NCBI RefSeq assembly: GCF_011043735.1
Contig: NZ_JAAKGV010000004.1
Span: 186,001-250,000, forward strand
From: Methylobacterium sp. DB0501
GTDB lineage: Bacteria; Pseudomonadota; Alphaproteobacteria; Rhizobiales; Beijerinckiaceae
Direction: 5' to 3'
Length of the DNA: 64,000 bases
The notes under the pieces are model-generated. The model had not been told where the DNA came from. It worked only from the letters and a program-made list of their open reading frames with translations, and made no database searches. A program made the position numbers and the translations under genes. Below are positions 6,421 through 19,789 of this stretch, piece after piece (position 1 is the stretch's first letter; each line of letters starts with the position of its first letter).

Positions 6421-6637
6421 CGCGGGACCGTGATGCTTCGAGGAAGAAAGCATCGGCTCCGACATCACGAGCGCGCGTTGCGTCACTCGCCAGAGGGGCC
6501 CGCAGCCGATGGGAGCGACTTATGTCCCGGATGGCGGCGGATCAAGGGCAGCGGGCGGTCACGGCCACGCTCTTATTTTTGCGCCCTGCCCGCGCGGCAG
6601 GTTGACAGGGCGGCCCGCGTCGCGGCCTTGGCGGCGG

Positions 6638-10977: not shown

Positions 10978-14727
<3,750 letters not shown>

Positions 14728-14830: not shown

Positions 14831-15745
14831 TCAGGCCGCCGCCTTCTCCGCCGCCACCGGCGCCGCGCGCAAGCCCAGGAGGTGGCAGATCGCGTAGACG
14901 AGGTCGGCGCGGTTCATGGTGTAGAAGTGGAAGTCGGTGATGCCGCGGTCGACGAGGTCCAGCACCTGCTCGGCGGCGACCGCCGCGGCCACCAGCTTGC
15001 GGGTCGCGACGTCGTCGTCCAGCCCCTCGAAGCGGGCGGCGAGCCAGTCCGGCACCGAGGCGCCGGTGCGGCGGGCGAAGTTGGCGGCCTGCTTGAAGTT
15101 CTGCACCGGCAGGATGCCCGGGATGATCGGGATGGTGATCCCCCGGGCCCGCACCCGGTCGAGGTAGCGGAAGAACAGGTCGTTCTCGAAGAAGAACTGG
15201 GAGATGGCGCGGTCGGCGCCACAATCGACCTTGGCCTTCAGCGCATCGAGATCCTGATCGAGGGAGCCGGCCTCGGGGTGACGCTCGGGATAGGCCGAGA
15301 CCGAGACCTCGAAGTCGCCGACGCGCTTGATGCCGGCGACGAGGTCGCAGGAGCGCTCGTAGCCGCCCGGATGCGGGGCGTAGGCCGAGCCGACACCGTC
15401 CGCCGGGTCGCCGCGCAGGGCCACGATGTGGCGCACGCCGGCCTCGTGGTAGGCGCGCACCACGTCGTCGACCTCGCCCTTGGTCGCCGCCACGCAGGTG
15501 AGGTGGGCGGCGGGCTTCAGGTCGGTCTCGCGCACCAGGCGCGCCACGGTGTTGTGGGTGCGCTCGCGGGTCGAGCCGCCGGCGCCGTAGGTCACCGAGA
15601 CGAAGCTGGGGCCGAGCGGCGCCAGGCGCTCGATCGACGACCACAGGGTGGCCTCCATCTCGGCGGTCTTCGGCGGGAAGAACTCGAACGAGACGCGGAT
15701 CGGGCGGCAGCTCTCGCGGCTCGGGCGGAAGGAGGTGGCGAACAT
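14831..15745 (-). CDS. metF: Methylenetetrahydrofolate reductase MetF (304 aa)
   Basis: Flavoenzyme that reduces 5,10-methylene-THF to 5-methyl-THF, the substrate of MetH. The TIM-barrel start is [15 protein letters not shown], with the catalytic Glu in FEFFPPK. Next are [13 protein letters not shown], then HLTCVAATK and [10 protein letters not shown], which form the FAD and folate site, and [12 protein letters not shown] towards the C-terminus. The size matches the bacterial single-domain enzyme. It lies 36 nt downstream of the ArsR-methyltransferase gene and 103 nt upstream of metH. Direct functional coupling with both neighbours is expected. Confidence 0.97.
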
Positions 15746-15781: not shown

Positions 15782-16771
15782 TCAGGCGACGGCGCGGTCG
15801 GGCAAACCAGCCGCGGCTTCGGGGTGATGGGCGAGCCAGAGCGTGACGGTGAGCTGGTGCTCCGCGCCCCCGGCCGGGGCGAGGTGGCGCAGCCGCACGT
15901 CGGTCAGGCCGGCTTCGGAGAGCCAGCCCGCGACCTGCTCCGGGGCGAAGCCGAGGCGGCGATGCGCCTCGTCCGCGCGCAGGAATTCCAGGCTGTGGGG
16001 GGCGAAATCGACCACAAGGAGGCGACCGCCCGGGGCGACGAGGCGGGCGGCCTCGCGCAGGGCCCGCGCCGGGTCGTCGAGATAGTGCAGCACCTGGTGG
16101 ATCAGCACGAGATCGAAGCTCGCCCGGCCGAAGGGGGGCGCGTGGATGTCGCCCTGACGCAGGTCGATCCGGGTCAGGCCCTGGCGCTCCAGGTTGGCGC
16201 GGGCCACCGACAGCATGGCGTGGTTGGCGTCCAGCCCCGTCGCCCGCGCGGCCCGCGGCGCCAGGAGGCCGAGCATCCGCCCGGTGCCGGTGCCGAGATC
16301 GACGACGCTGCCGATCGGGCCGGGGCCGAGCGCGTCGAGCACCGCCGCCTCGACGGTGGCCTCCGGCACGTGGAGCGAGCGCACCCTGTCCCATTGCGGC
16401 GCCAGCCGCGCGAAGAAGCTCTGGGCGGCCTCCGCGCGCTGCGCCCGTACCGCCTGGAGCCGGGCCCGGTCCTCGGAGAGCGGCGGCTCGGCGGCATCGA
16501 GGGCGGAGATCAGCGGCGCCACCAGAGCGGCCACCCCCTCGCGCAGGCGGAAGAACGCCCAGGCGCCCTCCCGATGGCGCACCACCAGCCCGGCCTCGAC
16601 CAGGAGCTTGAGGTGACGGGAGATGCGCGGCTGCGACTGGCCGAGGATGTCGGTGAGGTCGGAGACCGACAACTCGCCCTCGCCGAGCAGCACCAGGATG
16701 CGCAGGCGCGTCTCCTCCGCGGCGGCCCGCAGCACGCCCAGGGCGTCGACGAAGGGGACGGTGGCGGTCAT
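15782..16771 (-). CDS. ArsR-family regulator fused to a SAM-dependent methyltransferase domain (329 aa)
   Basis: The N-terminal winged helix (about 10-85; EETRLRILVLLGEGELSVSDL, GQSQPRISRHLKLLVEAGLV) is of ArsR type. It lacks the usual CxC metal site. From about residue 130 a class I methyltransferase fold follows, with motif I VVDLGTGTGRMLG and FDLVLIHQVLHYLDDPARAL. This architecture sits next to metF/metH in many Alphaproteobacteria. By analogy with SahR-type regulators it probably senses SAM or S-adenosylhomocysteine and represses methionine-cycle genes. The start at 16771 is favoured by GAGGAG 9 nt upstream; a start at 16840 would place the operator inside the coding region. Confidence 0.88.
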   Translation of the reverse strand: MTATVPFVDALGVLRAAAEETRLRILVLLGEGELSVSDLTDILGQSQPRISRHLKLLVEAGLVVRHREGAWAFFRLREGVAALVAPLISALDAAEPPLSEDRARLQAVRAQRAEAAQSFFARLAPQWDRVRSLHVPEATVEAAVLDALGPGPIGSVVDLGTGTGRMLGLLAPRAARATGLDANHAMLSVARANLERQGLTRIDLRQGDIHAPPFGRASFDLVLIHQVLHYLDDPARALREAARLVAPGGRLLVVDFAPHSLEFLRADEAHRRLGFAPEQVAGWLSEAGLTDVRLRHLAPAGGAEHQLTVTLWLAHHPEAAAGLPDRAVA

Positions 16772-16800
16772 GCCTGGAAGCTCCTCACCTCCGATGCGAA

Positions 16801-16820
16801 ACATAAAGATATCTTTATGT
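16801..16820. promoter_or_regulatory. Perfect 20-bp palindromic operator upstream of the methionine operon
   Basis: ACATAAAGATATCTTTATGT is an exact inverted repeat. It is AT-rich in a GC-rich context and centred about 40 nt upstream of the regulator's start codon. Size and symmetry suit a dimeric ArsR/SahR-type winged-helix protein, so autoregulation of the whole metF-metH unit is likely. The topoisomerase gene is divergent, starting 217 nt away, and could be affected too. Confidence 0.75.
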
Positions 16821-17036
16821 GAGACACGGCGGCGGCGCAAGCGGCGTTTCCCGGCTACGCTTGTTTCCGGGCGACATGCCGTTCTCCCCTGGCGCCAAGG
16901 ACCCCGATCCTGGCATGGCCGCCTGAATCGATCGCGAAGCGGAGGCCGCGAAAGCGGCGTTGACCGGGCCGGGGCGCCTCCGGTATGTTCTTGCTTCGTT
17001 CGGGCCGCCCTGCCCGCTCAAGAGCGTCCCGCTGCC

Positions 17037-19552: not shown

Positions 19553-19628
19553 GCCCGGGTAGCTCAGTTGGTAGAGCATGCGACTGAAAATCGCAGTGTC
19601 GGCGGTTCGACTCCGTCCCCGGGCACCA
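19553..19628 (+). tRNA. tRNA-Phe (GAA), copy 1
   Basis: A 76-nt cloverleaf: acceptor GCCCGGG/CCCGGGC, D-loop AGCTCAGTTGGTAGAGC, anticodon loop CTGAAAA with GAA at 19586-19588, T-loop TTCGACT, and encoded CCA. Identical to the second copy 85 nt downstream. Confidence 0.97.
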
Positions 19629-19713: not shown

Positions 19714-19789
19714 GCCCGGGTAGCTCAGTTGGTAGAGCATGCGACTGAAAATCGCAGTGTCGGCGGTTCGACTCCGTCCCCGGGCACCA
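19714..19789 (+). tRNA. tRNA-Phe (GAA), copy 2
   Basis: Exact duplicate of the copy at 19553-19628, with the same anticodon GAA (19747-19749) and encoded CCA. The 85-nt spacer between them is not duplicated. The two were probably produced by tandem duplication and may be co-transcribed. The 271 nt downstream (19790-20060) hold no credible gene and are somewhat AT-richer. Confidence 0.97.

Follow-up and report, generated by a model that had tools for sequence, protein, structure and literature searches.

A perfect 20-bp palindrome, ACATAAAGATATCTTTATGT, stands directly 5' of a gene for an ArsR-type regulator that heads a methionine operon, and the locus raises the question of which protein uses this site and to which signal it responds. 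The palindrome lies on the minus strand at 16801-16820 of the window, which is the whole 64-kb stretch of DNA analysed here. The initial annotation had described it as an exact 20-bp inverted repeat, strikingly AT-rich for its setting and 30 nt upstream of the regulator. The repeat was found exactly, and its composition was indeed unusual: only 4 of the 20 letters are G or C in a window of 71% GC, and 14 of the 63,981 window 20-mers have four or fewer G/C. Its place directly 5' of the regulator was also correct, while the spacing to the ATG at 16771 (minus strand) was measured as 29 nt and not 30. No other match was present in the window when up to three mismatches were allowed, and none of 100 shuffles contained one. 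Palindromy alone is unremarkable because the window has four perfect 20-bp palindromes (at 1360, 16801, 44043, and 63206), so it is composition, position, and conservation that carry weight. The palindrome at 1360-1379, ATGCATCCGGCCGGATGCAT, lies within a 302-aa ORF of the minus strand and is likewise single in the window at up to three mismatches.

The regulator gene, hereafter sahR, occupies 15782-16771 on the minus strand and encodes a protein of 329 aa. Domain and fold matches assigned an ArsR winged helix (HTH_5, E 1.1e-15, residues 20-63) and a class I SAM-dependent methyltransferase-like domain at about residues 137-318 (Methyltransf_11, E 5.4e-26, residues 157-253), as expected from the earlier description of a winged helix fused to such a domain. 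After a gap of 36 nt follows metF, encoding methylenetetrahydrofolate reductase (14831-15745, minus strand; MTHFR, E 2e-93). Behind it lies metH (10978-14727, minus strand), a cobalamin-dependent methionine synthase gene that matched the NCBIfam equivalog PRK09490 with 2152.7 bits (cut-off 1497). The proposed order of regulator, metF, and metH was thereby confirmed.

Elsewhere in the window, two tandem tRNA-Phe (GAA) genes are located on the plus strand at 19553-19628 and 19714-19789, 85 nt apart and with equal Rfam scores. A terC RNA, a cis-regulatory family, was detected on the minus strand at 6450-6511 with 56.4 bits against a cut-off of 39.9.

The gene order and the palindrome were compared across relatives. 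The closest named orthologues of the regulator were those of M. platani (97%), M. tarhaniae (96%), and M. aquaticum (96%). The 80 named loci used here were the top 80 among at least 540 relatives; they are closely related, with 64-97% identity, and the 40 order-level genomes represent one per family. At the class level, the protein was found at E <= 1e-50 in 55 of 115 genomes. The metF gene lies 3' of sahR in 80/80 named, 30/34 order-level, and 29/29 class-level loci, and metH is also downstream in 79 of the 80 named loci, the exception being a 3-kb contig (L080). The palindrome itself was present 5' of sahR with at least 18 of 20 positions matching in all 80 named loci: 66 matched at 20/20, 13 at 19, and one at 18 (L085). 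At a threshold of at least 17/20, it was found in 31/34 order-level and 25/29 class-level loci.

No such site precedes the sahR matches of L209, L215, and L225, the remaining three of the 34 order-level loci. The matches in L209 (genome G080) and L215 (G094) adjoin neither an operator nor metF, and the ahcY genes of these two genomes (L233 and L249) bear a 17/20 or 18/20 site. Several Microvirga loci within L053-L075 carry a second, shifted inverted repeat (e.g., AAAGATATAAATATATCTTT) that overlaps the sahR operator, and this overlap suggests three half-sites.

A scan of the genome for further copies of the palindrome before other methionine genes had been proposed, and it returned one such gene. 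The own genome (7,580,656 bp in 86 contigs) was searched with the 16-bp core of the operator. The core occurred once without mismatch, at sahR, once with one mismatch, and at eight places with three mismatches; the reversed pattern as a control gave four forward matches at up to three mismatches. The one-mismatch site precedes ahcY, encoding SAH hydrolase, and ends 68 nt before it. No third site within two mismatches of the core exists in the 7.58-Mb genome, be it at metE, at a metA-type gene, or elsewhere. Among the genes that had been named as possible targets, ahcY thus carries the site and metK does not, as no 20-mer at the metK locus (L150) matches the operator at 13/20 or better.

The same two-site arrangement recurred in the genus. 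The strict pattern ATAAASATATSTTTAT, allowing up to one mismatch, was searched in 99 genomes, comprising 59 of the genus (own included) and 40 of the order-level sample, and its reversed control matched in 4 of the 99. All 59 genus genomes had at least two sites, with exactly two in 55 and three in four. Among the matches listed, 33 of 35 non-sahR sites from 33 genus genomes (own excluded) precede ahcY; the third sites of G004 and G009 lie outside this set, and G057 and G045 were seen via their ahcY loci. The other two (L167 and L174) are third sites and do not have ahcY downstream. In the order-level sample, the extra sites fetched from two genomes (G075 and G085) also precede ahcY. Furthermore, a site of at least 17/20 was found at 25 of the 30 ahcY loci examined, in which the genes were placed by tblastn, ahcY being present in 98 genomes.

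The strict pattern also followed the protein. It occurred in 29/34 order-level genomes with a sahR orthologue and in 0/6 without one (Fisher p 1.2e-4, relatedness ignored), and was absent from five order-level genomes that have the protein. A looser site (17/20) precedes ahcY in G060, a genome of 92% completeness without a detectable orthologue.

In light of these results, we assign a probability of roughly 0.9 to the reading that ACATAAAGATATCTTTATGT, an operator predicted from sequence and conservation, is the autoregulatory operator of SahR, a SAH-responsive ArsR-family repressor of the SAM cycle. According to Leyn 2014 (PMC4239095), SahR of alpha-, delta-, and some gammaproteobacteria is a regulator of the ArsR family that responds to SAH and has a 20-bp palindromic site, with sahR, ahcY, metH, metF, and metK as its core targets. 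"Core" there refers to most regulons and not to all, so that metK is not strictly defining; the word Methylobacterium is absent from the main text of that paper. A follow-up noted taxon-specific substitutions in the SahR motif (PMC5343134). The sahR promoter of Ensifer aridi reaches its highest activity when sahR is deleted (PMC8877191), which fits autorepression. The regulator type, the target operon, and the comparison with SahR made in the initial annotation therefore hold, given the domains, metF and metH, the ahcY site, and the published regulon. We infer DNA binding by the window protein, repression, and SAH as the ligand, and, for much of the genus, a leaderless start.

The position of the operator relative to predicted promoter elements differed between the two target genes. 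At sahR, a -35 box TTGCGC is predicted at 16835-16840 (minus strand) from a conserved CTTG, 17 nt before a predicted -10 box TAAAGA at 16812-16817 (minus strand), which lies inside the left operator arm and was placed by that 17-nt spacing. The CTTG begins exactly 21 nt 5' of the operator in 76/80 named loci, namely in 51/51 of the Methylobacterium and Enterovirga groups, 21/23 of Microvirga, and 4/6 others. These 51 loci comprise 46 of the Methylobacterium group, including three MAGs of looser label, and five of the Enterovirga group. In order-level loci, the CTTG at this position was found in only 9/31. The mapped dcmR PR1 promoter of M. extorquens DM4 (TTGCGC-17-TAACTA; PMC9320726) has the identical -35 hexamer and spacing. 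The text of the same study describes -10 boxes without a conserved last T and 7% leaderless mRNA in this strain. The sahR promoter was missed by a generic promoter scan, which requires a T as the final base of the -10 box. The right operator arm contains an ATG, and transcription is predicted to start on its A, 7 nt past the -10 box.

At ahcY, the operator stands further upstream. Among 34 Methylobacterium ahcY loci (33 relatives and the own genome), TTGC lies 5 nt past the operator in 32, and all 34 have TA at offset 28, an arrangement that corresponds to a 17-nt-spaced predicted promoter just 3' of the operator. Because this promoter begins just downstream, the operator sits 5' of the predicted -35 box, a less obvious position for a repressor. 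Repression at ahcY is likely by analogy with sahR, and activation would also be compatible with the operator position.

Under the SahR reading, a SahR dimer on the palindrome would block RNA polymerase from the sahR-metF-metH promoter, because the operator covers the predicted -10 box and transcription start. The second operator, adjoining the predicted ahcY promoter, would extend this control to SAH hydrolase. With increasing SAH, the methyltransferase-like domain would bind it and SahR would leave the DNA, so that the genes for SAH removal and homocysteine remethylation would be turned on. Novichkov and colleagues reportedly described in 2014 that SAH releases SahR from DNA, and the same work is said to relate the sensing domain of SahR to SAM-dependent methylases. 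Sensing by the fused domain, as opposed to catalysis, is thus also the reported view of SahR.

The right-arm ATG of the operator (16802-16804, minus strand), a candidate start codon, is in frame with sahR. It is present and in frame in 51/51 loci of the Methylobacterium and Enterovirga groups, and the frame is open in 50, the sole closed one being L016 with an in-frame stop. The distance from this ATG to the conserved core of the protein is 45, 48, 51, 54, 57, 63, or 99 nt, all multiples of three. Within the Methylobacterium group, 45/46 frames are open, and 39 of these have no other ATG before the core; in 23 loci of the group, neither ATG, GTG, nor TTG occurs between operator and core. Operator position 19 is G in 46/46 sites at sahR versus 26/34 at ahcY (relatedness ignored). 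The operator ATG was found in 0/23 Microvirga loci, and elsewhere it is in frame and open in 6/31 order-level loci and 1/29 class-level loci (L282). As the sole start in an open frame it was found in 1/57 loci, because 50/57 have an in-frame TTG 36 nt upstream, the predicted -35 box. The ORF list opens the regulator frame at this TTG (16840), which is unlikely as a start codon since it belongs to the predicted -35 box.

Judged by these frames, translation of sahR probably begins at the operator ATG across much of the genus. The window and its clade (L011-L015 and L090) have a second in-frame ATG 33 nt downstream with a strong ribosome-binding site; the ribosome-binding-site-like GGAGGTGAGGAG lies at 16781-16792 (minus strand) of the window, and L011-L015 and L090 show a Shine-Dalgarno match of 5/6 before the downstream ATG. 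Given this second ATG and its ribosome-binding site, the operator ATG in the window's clade probably serves just to start transcription and is not the main start codon. Judging from sequence, there is about an even chance that sahR mRNA is leaderless across much of the Methylobacterium and Enterovirga groups. An operator holding the start codon would be a compact design for autoregulation, and no description of a start-codon-containing operator of Methylobacterium was found in the open-licence PMC literature.

The fused domain may be a sensor or an enzyme, and the conservation of the regulator bears on this distinction. The window protein was aligned with 53 sequences hand-picked from 114 orthologue loci, leaving out L209, L215, L225, and many near-duplicates. 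Among these 54 chosen sequences, 8/9 positions of the recognition helix Q45-H53 are invariant, and the SAM-binding motif DxGTGTG (D158, G160-G164) is intact and invariant in 54/54, as are H225, H229, D255, H259, and H270. A well-kept pocket is a need of sensor and enzyme alike. The AlphaFold2 model had a mean pLDDT of 91, and its C-terminal half resembled class I methyltransferases (1vl5, Z 23.5, rmsd 1.6, 173 aligned residues). The fold-comparison rows span about residues 118-318, the methyltransferase half only, and no full-length ArsR-methyltransferase fusion was among the matches listed. The top Foldseek rows had full-length coverage but rmsd values of 15-21 and TM below 0.5.

The alternative that survives best, although unlikely, is a protein with both enzymatic and regulatory functions, comparable to ArsR^M of Brevundimonas sp. 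M20: its methyltransferase domain would methylate arsenite or some other substrate, and its ArsR part would autoregulate the met operon. In Li 2023 (PMC10190100), ArsR^M is a fusion of ArsR and methyltransferase parts whose gene is the first of an operon that includes metF and metH. As described there, the protein shifts an own-promoter probe holding the predicted palindrome CTTTATATAAAG, and a kit assay was taken as arsenite methylation. Six of the eight SAM-site residues named for ArsR^M (H223, Q224, H227, F254, R263, and H268) correspond at a constant offset of 2 to H225, Q226, H229, F256, R265, and H270 of the window protein and are conserved in 52 to 54 of the 54 sequences, and the intact SAM-binding motif would serve an enzyme as well. 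However, C134 and P296 of ArsR^M have no match in the window protein at this offset. The window protein has no cysteine at all, and no alignment column of the family conserves a Cys (best 16/54). The Gln named as an arsenic ligand is conserved in 53/54, whereas the column of its arsenic-contacting partner Tyr228 holds Tyr in 32, Phe in 21, and Ile in one, so that an ArsM-type ligand set was not found across the family. The linkage to metF in all named and class-level loci and in 30/34 order-level loci also argues against an arsenite enzyme. A sensor is favoured on these grounds, with the fused domain taken to bind SAM or SAH and not to act as an enzyme, although it may retain activity on some substrate.

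An improbable combined version holds that in the Methylobacterium and Enterovirga groups the operator unites -10 box, transcription start, and start codon for a leaderless sahR-metF-metH mRNA, while the fused domain turns over SAM as a trigger enzyme. If true, the SahR and ArsR^M literatures would come together as descriptions of a single family.

Two further explanations are very improbable. A metal- or arsenic-sensing ArsR/SmtB repressor is suggested by the top NCBIfam match, a generic metalloregulator subfamily, but the lack of cysteine and the location of both sites before SAM-cycle genes stand against it. Formation of an RNA hairpin or terminator, as might be expected in the transcript of an inverted repeat close to a start codon, is contradicted by the same letters occurring before two unrelated genes, by most of the palindrome being untranscribed if the predicted -10 box is right, and by the lack of any Rfam family at cut-off near it.

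Riboswitch control was considered and rejected: Rfam gave no family at cut-off near the operator, and the regions upstream of metK and ahcY had only one chance-level match. Genome searches for SAM_alpha and SAM-SAH returned no matches, but neither did their positive controls, so these searches say nothing against the presence of such RNAs.

Returning to SahR as the preferred identity, the locus was compared with three described systems. SamR of Xanthomonadales is likewise a SahR-like regulator of methionine genes, and by its description in Leyn 2014 (PMC4239095) it is set apart by a 24-bp palindrome, a wider regulon with metK, and another taxon.

The palindrome of Brevundimonas ArsR^M also consists of CTTTAT and ATAAAG, with the half-sites in the opposite order to the window operator (PMC10190100). 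ArsR^M is claimed to be an arsenite methyltransferase, whereas its C134, P296, and Tyr228 are not family-wide. The main text of that paper contains none of the terms SahR, SAH, Leyn, and Novichkov, and no statement that ArsR^M is SahR was found in the open-licence PMC literature. From the sequence correspondences, we infer that ArsR^M is a SahR orthologue. The proteins published as SahR and as ArsR^M appear to belong to a single family, for whose shared domain opposing functions have been claimed.

The published SahR and the window system have in common an ArsR-family regulator, a 20-bp palindromic operator (motif compared by description), autoregulation, and the targets metF, metH, and ahcY. 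The genome comparisons support a SahR regulon of two operons in a genus of methylotrophs, organisms to which methyl-group flux is central. The two systems differ in metK, which is a core target of the published SahR, whereas the metK of the window genome has no site and stands outside the SahR regulon. Furthermore, unlike that of the published SahR, the operator of the Methylobacterium and Enterovirga groups holds a predicted -10 box and an in-frame ATG.
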